Assembly (NCBI GenBank): GCA_000531095.1 | Contig: HG799462.1 | Span: 809,551-873,550, forward strand | Length of the DNA stretch: 64,000 nucleotides | Direction of reading: 5' to 3' | DNA from: Gemmata massiliana | GTDB taxonomy: Bacteria > Planctomycetota > Planctomycetia > Gemmatales > Gemmataceae | Shown: in pieces, positions 13,147-19,139 of the stretch | Position numbering within the stretch: position 1 is the first letter of the stretch | How the letters are laid out: each line of letters starts with the position of its first letter | Made by a program: the position numbers and the translations under genes | Notes under the pieces: generated by a model | What the model was told of the DNA's origin: nothing | Databases searched by the model: none | The model's input: only the letters and a program-made list of their open reading frames with translations

Positions 13147-15582
13147 TCACAGCACCGGGAGCGGTACCCGCTTCGTGTCCTCGAATTGGCCGGCGTACAC
13201 GGGCTTGTCGCGCTCCAACCACGGGTCGACGTAGGCCGCGATGGTCTTCTCCACTTCCACGTCGAGTTGGGCACAGATCCCGAGCGAGTCGTTCACGATG
13301 ATGTCGCGTACTTTCTCGATGCCGAGCCGCGGAACGAAGTCGTAAGTGCGTTCGAGCCACTTCGCGTTGTCGCGGTAGTAGATGAGGAACCGGCCGATCA
13401 CGCGGAGCGCGTCTTCCTTCGTGGTCACGCGGCACAGCACCTCGGTCTTGCGGACGTGGGCACCGGCCGCGCCGCCGACACTCACTTCCCACTCGCCGCC
13501 CTCGGTGGCGATCACGCCGACGTCCTTGACGGTCGATTCGGCACAGTTCCGCGGGCACCCGCTCACCGCGAGCTTCACCTTCGCCGGGAACTCGAACCCC
13601 TGGAACCGCTTCTCCAGATCGATCCCGAGGCCGGTGCTGTCATTCGTCCCGTACCGGCAGAACTCGCTGCCGACACAGGTCTTCACGGTGCGGAGCGCCT
13701 TCGTGTAGGCGTGACCGCTGGGCATCCCGAGATCGGCCCACATACCGGGCAGGTCTTCTTTCTTGACGCCGAGCAGGTCGATGCGCTGGCCCCCGGTGAA
13801 CTTCACCATCGGTACCGCGTACTTCTTCGCGACGTGCCCGATCTTGATGAGGTCTTCGGCCGTTGTGATGCCGCCGTAGATGCGCGGGATCACCGAGAAC
13901 GTGCCGTCCTTCTGGATGTTCGCGTGTACGCGGTCGTTGATGAACCGACTGTCGCGCTCGTCGATGTACTCCGTACCCCAAATGCCCTTGAGCATCGACG
14001 CCAGCCCGTTGCGACTCTTTTCGTCGTCGCCGGTGCCGAGCTCACGGAGCACCGCAGACACGCTCTTTAGCCCGCGTGCCTTCACTTCCGCGACGAGCGA
14101 CGGCTTGTCGAGCGGAACGGCCGCGACGAACCACGACTCGCTCGGATCGGCTTTCACGCCACCCGCGACCGCTTCGATCAGCCCCTTCACGAGTGTCTTG
14201 CACGAACCGCACCCGGTCCCGGCGCGCGTTGCCTTGCCGACCGCGGGCACGGTACATTTGCCCGCTTTGATCGCCGAGACGATGGTGCCTTTGCAAACGC
14301 CGTTGCAGTCACAGATCTGGTGCGAATCGGGCAGGTCCGCGAGCGAGACTTCTTTCTTCGCCGAGCCCGCGGTGAAGAAGAGTTCGAGCCGGCGGTCGGG
14401 CACCGGGCCGGCCGCGTGGAACAGGCGCATCAGGTCGTCGGCAGGTGCGAGGTCACCGAGGAGGCACGCGGCGCTCACCTTCCCGTCGCGGACGATGGTC
14501 TTCCAGTACACTTGCCGTGCCGGTTCAGCGAACTGTACCACTTCGTCGGTCGGCTGGAGGTCGTTGATGCGCCCCATGCTCGCGAGTTCGACGCCCATCA
14601 CCTTGAGCTTGGTCGCGATCTTCGAGCCGGTGTAGGTAGCGGCCGGGTCCGTGCCGGTGAGCACCTTCGCGAGCACCTTCGTTTGTTCCCACAGCGGGGC
14701 GACGAGGCCGTAGATCATCCCGTTGTGCTGGACGCACTCGCCCACGCCGAACACCGCCGGGTCGTTCGTGCGGAGCTGGTCGTCCACGACGATCGCTTTG
14801 TCGCAGGTGACGCCGCACTCGCGTGCGAGTTCCGAGTTCGGCCGGATGCCGGCGGAGATCACCACCATGTCGGCCGGGATCTCGCTCCCGTCCGCGAACT
14901 TCACCCCGGTCACGTTCATGTGGCCGAGCAGTTCTTTGGTGACGGTTCCGGTGCGTGATTTGATGCCGAGGTTCGCGATGGTTTGGCCGAGTACCTTTCC
15001 GCCGGCCTCGTCGAGCTGCACACTCATCAGCCACGAGCTCATTTCGACGACCGTGACCTCGACGTTGTGGGTCATCAGCCCTTTGGCAGCTTCCAACCCG
15101 AGTAGCCCGCCGCCGATCACGACCGCGGTCTTGCGCCCCTTCGCGTATTCGGCGATGTTGCGGCAATCGTCGAGTGTGCGGAACGCGAACACCCCGTGGA
15201 GCGGCGTGCCCGGGATCGGCGGGATGAACGGCTTGCTGCCCGTCGCGAACACGAGGTAGTCGTAGTCCACGGCGAAGTCGTCCGCGAAGACTTGTTTCGA
15301 CTCGCGGTCGACCTTCGTTACGCGCTTCCCGGCGTGCAGGGTGATGCCGTTCTCCTCGTACCACGCGAGCGGGTTGAGGAAGATTTCTTTCGCGTCTTGA
15401 GTGCCGTTGAGCACGTTCGACAGGAGGATGCGGTTGTAGTTGCCGTATGGCTCGTCGCCGAACACGGTGATGTCGAAGCGCGTCGGGTCGCACGCGAGCA
15501 CGTCTTCGAGGAGCCTTGCCCCGGCCATCCCGTTCCCGATCACGACCAGCTTCGGCTTTTGCGGGTGGAGTGCGCGAATCAT
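13147..15582 (-). CDS. nirB: NAD(P)H-dependent nitrite reductase large subunit, siroheme/[4Fe-4S]
   Basis: A protein of 811 residues. N-terminal pyridine-nucleotide-disulfide oxidoreductase fold (FAD motif VVIGNGMAGARL; NAD motif VVIGGGLLGLEAAKG), then a BFD-type [2Fe-2S] domain near residues 423-460 (CDCNG, CGSC). Ferredoxin-like and siroheme domains follow, with the cluster ligands in GSEFCRYG (near 639) and SGCPRNC (near 674). It catalyses six-electron reduction of nitrite to ammonium in the cytoplasm. The start ATG has a strong AAGGAG site. It lies between cobA-type SUMT (siroheme supply) and nirD. Its first codons are repeated at 17016-17152 as an assembly artefact. Confidence 0.95.
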   Translation of the reverse strand: MIRALHPQKPKLVVIGNGMAGARLLEDVLACDPTRFDITVFGDEPYGNYNRILLSNVLNGTQDAKEIFLNPLAWYEENGITLHAGKRVTKVDRESKQVFADDFAVDYDYLVFATGSKPFIPPIPGTPLHGVFAFRTLDDCRNIAEYAKGRKTAVVIGGGLLGLEAAKGLMTHNVEVTVVEMSSWLMSVQLDEAGGKVLGQTIANLGIKSRTGTVTKELLGHMNVTGVKFADGSEIPADMVVISAGIRPNSELARECGVTCDKAIVVDDQLRTNDPAVFGVGECVQHNGMIYGLVAPLWEQTKVLAKVLTGTDPAATYTGSKIATKLKVMGVELASMGRINDLQPTDEVVQFAEPARQVYWKTIVRDGKVSAACLLGDLAPADDLMRLFHAAGPVPDRRLELFFTAGSAKKEVSLADLPDSHQICDCNGVCKGTIVSAIKAGKCTVPAVGKATRAGTGCGSCKTLVKGLIEAVAGGVKADPSESWFVAAVPLDKPSLVAEVKARGLKSVSAVLRELGTGDDEKSRNGLASMLKGIWGTEYIDERDSRFINDRVHANIQKDGTFSVIPRIYGGITTAEDLIKIGHVAKKYAVPMVKFTGGQRIDLLGVKKEDLPGMWADLGMPSGHAYTKALRTVKTCVGSEFCRYGTNDSTGLGIDLEKRFQGFEFPAKVKLAVSGCPRNCAESTVKDVGVIATEGGEWEVSVGGAAGAHVRKTEVLCRVTTKEDALRVIGRFLIYYRDNAKWLERTYDFVPRLGIEKVRDIIVNDSLGICAQLDVEVEKTIAAYVDPWLERDKPVYAGQFEDTKRVPLPVL

Positions 15583-15686
15583 CGGAGCTCCTTCTTGGCG
15601 AGCGGCCGGTGCGAGCCAGCCGGTGAGCGATCGGTTCCCGGTGAGGGTCGGTAATCAGTTGGTCGGTCGGGTTGGTTCTGTGGCGC
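15550..15686. repeat. 137-bp segment duplicated exactly at 17016-17152
   Basis: This segment covers the first nirB codons, the nirB-cobA spacer and the last cobA codons. It recurs base for base at 17016-17152 immediately after a 454-type linker sequence. This copy is in its natural context; the other is the artefactual one. Confidence 0.97.
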
Positions 15687-16455
15687 TCGCGTTCGTCGAT
15701 ACGAGGCCGAGCAACTTCTCGCGGAACCGGACGACTTCACCGACGACGAAGATCGCCGGCCCGCGGATTGTCGCGGATTCGGCCCGAGTGCCGATGTCGC
15801 TCAGGTCGCCCACAAGAACGCGCTGAGCGGGGAGCGTGCCGGACTCGATCACGGCTGCCGGTGTGCTCGATGCCAGCCCACTGTCACTCAGCTTCGCGGC
15901 GATCTTCGCGACGTGGCGGACACCCATGTAGAACACCACGCCCGGCATCCGCGCGAGGGCGTCCCAGTCGAGGGTGCATTCGGACGAGTCGGGGCCGTGG
16001 TGGCCTGTAACAAGTGCGACGGCTTGGCCGGCGGCGCGGTGCGTGATCGGGATGCCCGCCGCGGCACACGCGCCCGCGGCCGAGGTCACGCCCGGCACGA
16101 TCTCGAACGGGACGCCGGCTTCCGCGAGCACTTCGGCCTCTTCGCCGCCGCGCCCGAACACGCACGGGTCGCCGCACTTCAACCGGCACACCGATTTGCC
16201 CTCGCGGGCGAGTCGCACGAGTGCGTCGTTGATCGTTTCTTGTTTGGTGGAGCCGATGCAGTACCCGCGCTTCCCGACGGAAACGAGTTCCGCGTGCGCG
16301 CTAACTTCTGCGAGCAACTCGGGGGAGACGAGCGCGTCGTGAAGCACGACATCGGCGGACCGCAGGACGCGCAGCCCGCGAACAGTGATGAGGTCCGGGG
16401 CGCCGGGACCGGCCCCGACCAGGTACACCACTCCTGCTGACGCGAACCGGCCCAC
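15655..16455 (-). CDS. cobA: Uroporphyrinogen-III C-methyltransferase (SUMT, siroheme synthesis)
   Basis: A protein of 266 residues of the tetrapyrrole methylase family: N-terminal VYLVGAGPGAPDLITVRG, the HDALVS segment, the CxLKxGDPxxFGRGGEE motif near residue 93, and PGVTSAAGA near residue 121. It makes precorrin-2 from uroporphyrinogen III, the first step to siroheme, the cofactor of the NirB encoded 72 nt downstream. GTG at 16455 has GGAGG five bases upstream. It is the first gene of the operon. No precorrin-2 oxidase or ferrochelatase domain is fused, so that step must be encoded elsewhere. Confidence 0.94.
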   Translation of the reverse strand: MGRFASAGVVYLVGAGPGAPDLITVRGLRVLRSADVVLHDALVSPELLAEVSAHAELVSVGKRGYCIGSTKQETINDALVRLAREGKSVCRLKCGDPCVFGRGGEEAEVLAEAGVPFEIVPGVTSAAGACAAAGIPITHRAAGQAVALVTGHHGPDSSECTLDWDALARMPGVVFYMGVRHVAKIAAKLSDSGLASSTPAAVIESGTLPAQRVLVGDLSDIGTRAESATIRGPAIFVVGEVVRFREKLLGLVSTNASATEPTRPTN

Positions 16456-16557
16456 GGCGTCCTCCGGGCAATACGGTCCCGGCGCGGGCCGGGAAGAGAC
16501 GGCCCACGCGCGGGGGTGGTTTTGAGTGATCCATTCGTAGCTGTGTCATTTGGAGAT

Positions 16558-16573
16558 TGCATTTGGTGTGCCA
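16558..16573 (-). promoter_or_regulatory. Candidate sigma-54 promoter of the nitrate operon
   Basis: On the minus strand the sequence reads TGGCAC, five bases, ATGC. It matches the -24/-12 consensus TGGCAC-N5-TTGC at nine of ten positions with the exact GG-to-GC spacing. It lies about 100 bp upstream of the first gene (cobA). Caveat: the adjacent FixJ-type regulator lacks the AAA+ domain needed to activate sigma-54, so an activator elsewhere would be required, or the match is chance. Confidence 0.35.
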
Positions 16574-16578
16574 GAGTG

Positions 16579-16590
16579 GTGGCGTGCCAC
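16579..16590. promoter_or_regulatory. Palindrome GTGGC-GT-GCCAC, candidate operator
   Basis: A perfect 5-bp-arm palindrome, a few bases upstream of the candidate -24 element of the nitrate operon. The position suits a regulator site; the regulator is unknown. Confidence 0.35.
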
Positions 16591-16608
16591 AAACATGTGG
16601 GGCAAATA

Positions 16609-16622
16609 CGTGGTAAACCACG
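16609..16622. promoter_or_regulatory. Palindrome CGTGGT-AA-ACCACG, candidate operator
   Basis: A perfect 6-bp-arm palindrome in the divergent control region, 19 bp from the first palindrome and sharing the GTGG/CCAC half-site. The pair could bind one dimeric regulator, for example the FixJ-like protein encoded at 17835. Confidence 0.4.
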
Positions 16623-16766
16623 CCGATTTCTCGTGTAAAATTCAGTGGATTTACCGTTAAAGCGCTATTCTCCCCACGCGCATGTGACGCCCGCAGTTCG
16701 TGCAACTCTGGTGTGATAGTGCCTCTCCCGAGCGCACGACGTGGGCAGTAGAGAATTGGGGATCGC

Positions 16767-16973
16767 GTGATGGGTCGGGTATTCAGAACACAACCAGTAA
16801 CTCTCGCTCTCGCGCTGGTCGCGACCGTGTTCGTAATCGACTTGTGCCTCCCACTCGGCGTGGCGAGCGCGGTGCCGTACACGTTCGCGGTACTTCTCGC
16901 GCTTCGCGCGAAACCCGGTTGGGTCGGGCCGACAGTGGCCGTACTGTGTGGGGTACTGACGGTCGCGAAGATG
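16767..16973 (+). CDS. Sensor histidine kinase, N-terminal part (gene cut by assembly artefact)
   Basis: An ATG at 16767 opens 69 genuine-looking codons with two hydrophobic segments (VTLALALVATVFVIDLCL and SAVPYTFAVLLALRA), as expected for the membrane anchor of a sensor kinase. Reading then runs into the linker-like sequence at 16974 and stops within it. The catalytic part resumes in the right orientation at about 17152. I infer that both belong to one gene whose middle (remaining membrane helices, possibly a PAS domain) is missing. It is divergent from the nitrate operon, so nitrate or nitrogen status is a plausible signal. Confidence 0.6.
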
Positions 16974-17015
16974 CGTAATAACTTCGTATAGCATACATTA
17001 TACGAAGCTATACGA
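16974..17015. other. 454 paired-end (loxP) linker sequence left in the assembly
   Basis: The 42 bases start CGTAATAACTTCGTATAGCA and end CATTATACGAAGCTATACGA. This equals my recollection of the 454 Titanium paired-end linker, including its flanks outside loxP, except for one base (C at 17008 where the linker has T). The 13-bp loxP arm ATAACTTCGTATA and the spacer GCATACAT are exact. It is followed by a duplicate of DNA from 1.4 kb upstream in the same orientation, the order expected of a circularised mate-pair read. It is not a natural feature. Confidence 0.95.
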
Positions 17016-17152
17016 CTTCGGCTTTTGCGGGTGGAGTGCGCGAATCATCGGAGCTCCTTCTTGGCGAGCGGCCGGTGCGAGCCAGCCGGTGAGCGATCGG
17101 TTCCCGGTGAGGGTCGGTAATCAGTTGGTCGGTCGGGTTGGTTCTGTGGCGC
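17016..17152. repeat. Artefactual duplicate of 15550-15686 (second mate-pair tag)
   Basis: All 137 bases match the nirB-cobA junction on the same strand. The match begins exactly at the end of the linker and ends at 17152, where kinase sequence resumes. It carries a non-functional copy of the nirB ribosome-binding site and start. Any gene start called in it is spurious. Confidence 0.95.
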
Positions 17153-17838
17153 GGATGAGTCGGCTGGCCGTCGCGGGCGAACTCGCCACGGTTCTCGCGC
17201 ACGAACTGAATCAACCGCTCGCTGCGGTGTGCCTCCAGGCGGACATGGCCGCGCTCCTGGCGACCGAATCGACGTCCACCGGGCTGAGAGCTGCACTGGG
17301 CGAGGTCGCGGAGCAGTCGCACCGGGCCGCCGAGATCGTGCGGTCGATCCGCCAAACGGTTCGGCGCACGGACGTTGAGCGCGGACCAGTGGACTTAAAC
17401 GAGGTCGTTCGCGTGGTAGCGCGGCTCCTCGAATGGCGGGCGCGGCGGACCGGAGTGAGCGTGGAACTGAATTTGGCCGACCCGCTTCCCCCGACGTATG
17501 GCGATCGCGTACAACTCGAACAGGTGCTCTTTAACTTGCTCCAGAACGCGATCGAGGCGGTGGAAACCGTTCACGGACCACGAGTTGTTGTCATGGAGAC
17601 GGCGCCGGTCGGCGCCTGGCTCACGGTGCGCGTGCGCGACACCGGGCCGGGGTTGACGGACCCCGAGCGCGTGTTCGAGCAATTCTACACCACCAAGCCC
17701 GAGGGCATGGGCCTCGGGCTGGCGATCAGCCGGTCGATTGTGACCGCCCACGGCGGGGTACTCACAGCCGCACCTCGACCCGAGGGCGGAGCGGAGTTCA
17801 CCTGCATACTACCGATCTACCGGGAGGAAAAAGGGTGA
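17153..17838 (+). CDS. Sensor histidine kinase, C-terminal catalytic part (5' end missing)
   Basis: About 228 residues form a complete transmitter. The H-box (GELATVLAHELNQPLAAV) carries the phosphorylated histidine; the N-box (VLFNLLQNAIEAV), G1 (VRDTGPGL), F (FEQFYTTK) and G2 (GMGLGLAISRSIV) follow. The NQPL H-box is typical of FixL/DctB-type kinases that pair with FixJ-family regulators, as here. The stop overlaps the regulator's GTG start by 4 nt. The true 5' part lies across the artefact in 16767-16973; starts upstream of 17152 lie in duplicated DNA and are not real. Confidence 0.85.
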
Positions 17839-18443
17839 GCACGGAACCAACGATTTTCGTGGTCGACGACGACGAAGCCGTCGGCCGCGCGCTGGCGAGC
17901 GCCGGGAAGCTGCTCGGCCACCCCGTTCGCGCGTTCACATCGGCCGCCGCGTTCCTCGCGGAATACGGGCGCGACCAACCCGGCTGCCTCGTGCTCGATA
18001 TCCGGATGCCGGGGATGACGGGGCTGGAGCTCCAGCGCGTGCTCGCCGATTCGGGTGCAACGATTCCCGTGGTCATGATTAGTGGGCACGCGGACGTGCG
18101 GATCGCGGTCGAGGCGATGACGCTCGGTGCGGTCACGCTGTTGGAGAAACCGTTCCGGCTGGACGAGTTGCTTACCCACATTCGGCGCGCGTTGGAAAAG
18201 GACAGCGCCGATCGCGCCGCTCGTCAGCAAACGGCGGACGCGGACGCCCGGCTCGCGGTGCTGACCGCCAAGGAGCGCGAAGTGTTGGAGATGATCGCGG
18301 CCGGGAAATCGAACCGGGAAATGGCCGACGCACTCGGCCTCAGCGTTCGGGCCGTGGAGGACCGGCGGTCGCGCCTCATGAAGAAAGTGAACGCCAGCTC
18401 CGTCGCGGAGTTGGTGAAGCTGCTCGCCGGCCGGAGTTCGTAA
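17835..18443 (+). CDS. FixJ-family response regulator (receiver plus LuxR-type HTH)
   Basis: A protein of 202 residues. Receiver domain 1-120 with acidic pocket VVDDD, phosphoacceptor Asp in VLDIRMPG (near 56), and switch Lys in LEKPF (near 106). The C-terminal LuxR-type helix-turn-helix (about 140-200) contains LTAKEREVLEMIAAGKSNREMA. This is the FixJ/TodT/StyR architecture. Translationally coupled to the kinase by a GTGA overlap. Position beside the nitrate assimilation operon suggests that operon as a target, by context only. Confidence 0.92.
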   Translation: MSTEPTIFVVDDDEAVGRALASAGKLLGHPVRAFTSAAAFLAEYGRDQPGCLVLDIRMPGMTGLELQRVLADSGATIPVVMISGHADVRIAVEAMTLGAVTLLEKPFRLDELLTHIRRALEKDSADRAARQQTADADARLAVLTAKEREVLEMIAAGKSNREMADALGLSVRAVEDRRSRLMKKVNASSVAELVKLLAGRSS

Positions 18444-18530
18444 GGGCGTCCGTTTTCGGGTGCCGCGAGCCTTTTCGCCGGTCGCGTGTCCGTGCTTGTG
18501 TGTTCGGCACCGATAACGCGGAGGTGGACC

Positions 18531-19139
18531 GTGGCCGAGATGCGCAAAGAGTTCCTATCCGAACGCGACGACCTGTTCGTCGTTCACGAGTTCCTCTCCC
18601 CGGACGAGTGCGATTACTACATCGCGATGACCGAGTCCGCCGGGTACGGTGACGCGCCGATTACGACGATGAGCGGTCCCGTCATGCGGAAGGACATCCG
18701 CAACAACGATCGCGTGATGATCGACGACCCGCAGATCGCCGGAACGATCTGGGGCCGGCTGAAGGCGTTCGTGCCCGATCGCGTGCAGTTCTGGCTCCCG
18801 GTCGGGCTGAACGAGCGGTTCCGGTTCTATCGGTACGATCCGGGCCAGCAGTTCGACTGGCACTTCGACGGGGCCTACGAGCGCTCCCCGCTGGAACGGA
18901 GCGCGTTCACGTTCATGATCTACCTGAACGGCGGGGTGGCGGGCGGCGCGACCGAGTTCAATCTGCGCTCCCACGGCGGAACGCGGAGCGACGACCCGAT
19001 CGTGCGCGTGCAACCAGAAGCGGGCAAGGCGCTGGTGTTCCCGCACCGCATTTACCACCGCGGCGCGCCGGTCGCCGACGGACGCAAGTACGTGATGCGC
19101 ACCGACATCATGTGCCGCTGGAGCGAGAAAGTAGGGTAA
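18531..19139 (+). CDS. 2-oxoglutarate/Fe(II)-dependent dioxygenase, prolyl 4-hydroxylase-like
   Basis: A protein of 202 residues of the P4Hc fold. The iron ligands are in WHFDGAY (H-x-D, near residue 112) and HRIYHRG (distal His, near 172), with a downstream Arg in KYVMRTD for 2-oxoglutarate. The catalytic segment FMIYLNGGVAGGATEF is typical. The GTG at 18531 has GGAGG at 18520-18524; an ATG at 18540 is an alternative. Substrate unknown; family members hydroxylate prolyl or other side chains. Stands alone on its strand. Confidence 0.88.
   Translation: MAEMRKEFLSERDDLFVVHEFLSPDECDYYIAMTESAGYGDAPITTMSGPVMRKDIRNNDRVMIDDPQIAGTIWGRLKAFVPDRVQFWLPVGLNERFRFYRYDPGQQFDWHFDGAYERSPLERSAFTFMIYLNGGVAGGATEFNLRSHGGTRSDDPIVRVQPEAGKALVFPHRIYHRGAPVADGRKYVMRTDIMCRWSEKVG

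Follow-up and report, generated by a model that had tools for sequence, protein, structure and literature searches.

Two described sequences stand closest to the element studied here, the circularization linker of the Roche/454 GS FLX Titanium paired-end chemistry and the loxP site of phage P1. In the available portion of one article, the 42-nt linker sequence and its reverse complement are given as adapters of mate-pair libraries prepared with a Roche circularization adaptor and Cre (PMC5199103). The available portion of another gives one strand of the same 42-mer, which served there as adapter in a Cre/loxP mate-pair library (PMC5710592). The draft genome of Gemmata massiliana IIL30 (project PRJEB621) was described, as far as the accessible part of its report goes, as a 454 Titanium project in which a 3-kb paired-end library was amplified over 17 PCR cycles and assembled by Newbler 2.8; 22 scaffolds, one 16S gene, and a size of 9,249,437 were published (PMC4672568). 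The assembly that contains our window, i.e. the whole 64,000-nucleotide stretch of DNA analyzed, comprises 9,269,192 bases in 22 contigs and yielded one 16S match, spanning 983 bases. The contig count and the 16S result fit the published description, although the sizes differ by ~20 kb; the assembly is likely, but not certainly, the published 454 draft.

As evident from direct comparison, the 42 nucleotides at 16974-17015 agreed with the 454 Titanium paired-end linker in all but one position, i.e. in 41 of 42, the 4-nt flanks outside loxP included. The first-pass annotation had made this identification, and it proved right: the 42-mer is the one printed in the excerpts of PMC5199103 and, for one strand, PMC5710592. 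Both ends of the linker are present in the window. The sole mismatch was a T to C change at 17008 (plus strand). By this change, and by sitting in an assembled consensus rather than in a raw read, the window copy differs from the Roche/454 linker, with which it shares the sequence, the order tag-linker-tag, and the fragment size (1424 bp in the window; 1776-2412 bp at seven further sites). A single 34-nt loxP core lay in the window; it has one mismatch and occupies 16978-17011 of the minus strand. Matches to the core arose in 0 of 100 dinucleotide-preserving shuffles. The older FLX linker (31 nt) found no match in the genome with up to three mismatches allowed. The features of the locus are as follows.

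15550-15686, plus strand: native source of the right mate tag; relative G008 has a 96% identical sequence at the syntenic position.
16767-16973, plus strand: 5' portion of a sensor histidine kinase gene that is split here; it ends in the left mate tag, to which the linker is joined.
16974-17015, minus strand: 454 Titanium paired-end (circularization) linker, 41 of 42 bases.
17016-17152, plus strand: right mate tag, an exact 137-nt copy of 15550-15686.
17155-17838, plus strand: 3' portion of that kinase gene; the domains HisKA and HATPase_c were found in the frame holding this piece.

The same adaptor has also been used with Illumina reads, according to the available portions of PMC5199103 and PMC5710592. 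The linker could accordingly stem from another Cre/loxP mate-pair protocol, e.g. a Roche/Illumina hybrid, which would be a variant of the same explanation. We consider this variant unlikely, as the 22 contigs and the one 16S match agree with what the accessible text of the report presents as a pure 454 project, the identity of the strain being likely.

The sequence that follows the linker was analyzed next to its source. Positions 15550-15686 and 17016-17152 form a direct repeat of 137 nt with 100% identity, confirming the exact duplication reported in the first-pass annotation. The coordinates and lengths given there for the mate tags were also correct: the two genomic tags lie on one strand, and the right tag is drawn from upstream by one fragment length, the implied fragment (15550-16973) being 1424 bp long, in the order expected of a circularized fragment of ~1.4 kb. 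The source segment covers the start of a nitrite-reductase-like gene and the end of a tetrapyrrole methylase gene, both encoded on the minus strand. These two genes (13147-15582 and 15655-16455, respectively) lie beside the split kinase gene, and a LuxR-type response regulator is encoded near it at 17835-18443, all within the region 13147-18443. The kinase piece at 16767-16973 alone matched no Pfam family.

Such an arrangement would be produced if a genomic fragment of ~1.4 kb had been ligated to Roche circularization adaptors and the circle had been closed by Cre. The resulting library molecule would carry the right end of the fragment, the 42-nt linker, and the left end of the fragment, in this order. 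The linker was presumably left untrimmed and, together with the second tag, would have entered the consensus at a gap between two contigs, probably in the course of gap filling. About 150 native bases of the kinase gene would have been lost in this way, with about 175 foreign or misplaced bases in their stead. We regard it as virtually certain that 16974-17152 is an artefact of this kind, produced during sequencing and assembly: a leftover linker with its mate tag.

Comparison with close relatives was among the checks proposed in the first-pass annotation. Relative G008, available as a single contig, was 94% identical to the window over 15000-16973 and 91% identical over 17149-19000. In this genome the kinase gene is an unbroken frame of 348 amino acids and the linker is absent. 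Between the flanks, G008 has 147-150 native nucleotides, the figure varying with the alignment settings, which are absent from the window. A second relative, G012, aligned up to position 16973 and then again from 17149. Of five linker sites sought in G008, four aligned on both sides, and each of these was short of native bases (about 150, 131, 40, and 30 nt). At the three sites other than that of the window, the missing 131, 40, and 30 nt stand against 133, 41, and 37 nt present in the assembly. For site L030, dispersed repeats were the only matches in G008 and G012, and 19 regions of G008 picked by guessed synteny did not bring any additional linker site into alignment; a 20th region coincided with the place already known for L019. 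Because native bases are missing relative to G008, the linker replaces native sequence at the comparable sites. An inserted element would leave the native sequence in place; intact native sequence on both sides of the insert, as expected of a mobile element, was found at none of the four G008-aligned sites (of the five looked up). The replacement therefore points to a badly filled contig gap, and judging from the relative, the artefact appears to have taken the place of native sequence at such a gap rather than merely having been added to it.

A search for further copies of the linker, likewise proposed earlier, widened the explanation: 52 copies were found in the assembly (35 forward and 17 reverse, using a 30-nt part with up to three mismatches), and the site in the window is one of about 52. 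The same 30-nt pattern read backwards gave 0 matches in the assembly. If a fragment had been circularized, the bases to the right of the linker should derive from upstream on the same strand, or those to its left from downstream. A second copy of the 18 nt bordering each linker end was therefore sought in up to 20 kb of sequence at the 51 sites that could be parsed, the 52nd copy (C5:798419) adjoining a run of N. The adjoining 18 nt were repeated at 11 of the 51 sites, always on the same strand and in 10 of 11 cases in the predicted order. The one site with the contrary order lies inside a tandem-repeat gene, and one of the 10 (L031) is in the same gene. The implied fragments (shift minus 42) measured 1424 bp for the window and 1776 to 2412 bp at seven sites, with outliers of 47 and 6062 bp. 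The tag-linker-tag structure is not visible everywhere, because at 40 of the 51 sites either the adjoining 18 nt did not recur in the stretch read or N blocked the test. BLAST comparison of the 600-nt flanks (52 rows, one site among them being read on both strands) revealed more linker-touching repeats in the predicted order, e.g. at L020, L024, L048, and L051; contrary linker-touching repeats were confined to the tandem-repeat gene of L031.

The linkers themselves were not uniform. Inside them 13 substitutions were counted (six T>C, five A>G, one C>T, and one T>A), 12 of which are transitions; the count leaves aside differences near the linker ends, treated as edge, several of which are transversions (e.g. 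L009, L018, L042, and L048). Errors of 454 sequencing are mostly insertions and deletions. Polymerase error in the library PCR would explain the transitions, which lends mild support to the artefact. A base change was not the reason for failed trimming, because unchanged linkers also remain in the assembly. Eleven linkers lacked the first four bases and had C before ATAACTTCG, with GC in 9 of the 11. Twelve others end at GTTA, so that 23 of 51 linkers (among sites L009-L058) are cut at one of two recurrent inner points. The adjoining 18 nt were repeated at 3 of the 23 cut linkers (five of which lie beside N) versus 8 of the 28 others. The plain tag-linker-tag model does not account for the 23 cut linkers. 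Their ends could derive from the outer ends of unrecombined adaptors or from trimming by the assembler.

The loxP core raises the idea of a natural recombination site of the lox type that a Cre-like recombinase or a P1-like element had spread through the genome. With 33 of 34 core bases, the site in the window is indeed like phage P1 loxP, and the genome encodes three proteins with 27-30% identity to P1 Cre. Ordinary Xer-type recombinases show such low identity to P1 Cre. The site differs from P1 loxP in its flanks, in its many copies, and in the native bases missing around it. The flanking bases agree with the commercial linker and not with P1; when the P1 record was compared with the linker, P1 flanking sequence was absent from the window site. 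No cre gene was found near this site, the best of the three matches (30% identity) lying at C1:1557272, about 730 kb away. The core was detected in 0 of 98 other genomes, native bases are missing at four sites, and site-specific insertion would not be expected to leave mate-tag duplicates in one order. We hold a natural lox site to be extremely improbable, and the still bolder notion that dozens of lox-like sites are genuinely present in the strain and used by a Cre-like recombinase to rearrange its genome has, in our estimation, a marginally smaller chance yet. A natural loxP or Cre system was rejected as a candidate on account of the linker flanks, the 0 of 98 genomes, and the missing nearby Cre.

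The leftover linker was further traced in other genomes. None of 98 further genomes, including 18 from the same genus, contained the pattern. In a collection holding one genome per species, from which records of the own genome were possibly excluded, the exact 42-mer was present in 100 DNA stretches. The 80 stretches listed, out of the 100, came from nine organisms, none of them planctomycetes. Among the matches listed were Candidatus Paracaedibacter symbiosus, a Rickettsia endosymbiont MAG, Legionella tunisiensis, Clostridium sartagoforme, Kitasatospora cheerisanensis, an Agrobacterium, Litoribacter populi, a Paenibacillus, and Streptococcus macacae. Exact sharing by distant drafts combined with absence from relatives is the pattern of a reagent. 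The linkers in other public drafts (e.g. Candidatus Paracaedibacter symbiosus PRA9, Kitasatospora cheerisanensis KCTC 2395, and Clostridium sartagoforme AAU1) are like those of the present assembly in the exact 42-mer and, where repeats were found, mostly in the tag order (totals, not per organism). At the loci of the other organisms, 27 matches were in the predicted order, one pair being counted from both ends, versus 2 in the contrary order; repeats of at least 25 nt at 95% identity and within 3 nt of the linker were counted, and two Litoribacter loci with tandem linkers were set aside. Cut ends distinguish the present assembly (23 of 51), whereas the linkers of the other organisms had none, a difference that may reflect sampling since all of these were fetched by an exact full-linker match.

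Two observations were made on the way. In Litoribacter populi XAAS-A1, Scaffold5 (194-622) and Scaffold4 (147-557) carry four tandem linkers with spacings of 129 and 123 nt, which looks like a concatemer of library or assembly origin. Lactococcus phage Q33 (JX564242.1) has at 1997-2037, at the annotated end of the portal gene, a loxP core with flanks of the linker type (TCGT before and TAC after); this is probably a leftover linker, too.

The distribution also bears on an engineered or transposon-tagged laboratory strain with loxP scars. Such scars are common in engineered strains, which speaks for this explanation. It is opposed by the 52 scattered copies, the linker-specific flanks and variable ends, the missing native bases, and the occurrence of the same 42-mer in the drafts of other organisms, and we assign it only a minute probability. 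The statement of the first-pass annotation that the sequence is not a chromosome feature was borne out by the linker, the tag order, the fragment length, the 52 copies, the 0 of 98 other genomes, the exact linker in drafts of nine organisms that are not planctomycetes, and the unbroken, linker-free gene in the relative.

Although papers on 454 linkers left behind in deposited genomes may exist, a narrowly worded literature search found none. Exact copies in the genomes of nine other species suggest that contamination screens let the linker pass. In the present record, a kinase gene is split and native bases are missing at three further compared sites. The biological interest of the finding is low; its value is that of a quality flag for this and other records, as annotation and comparative work can take up spurious gene splits, duplications, and loxP sites.
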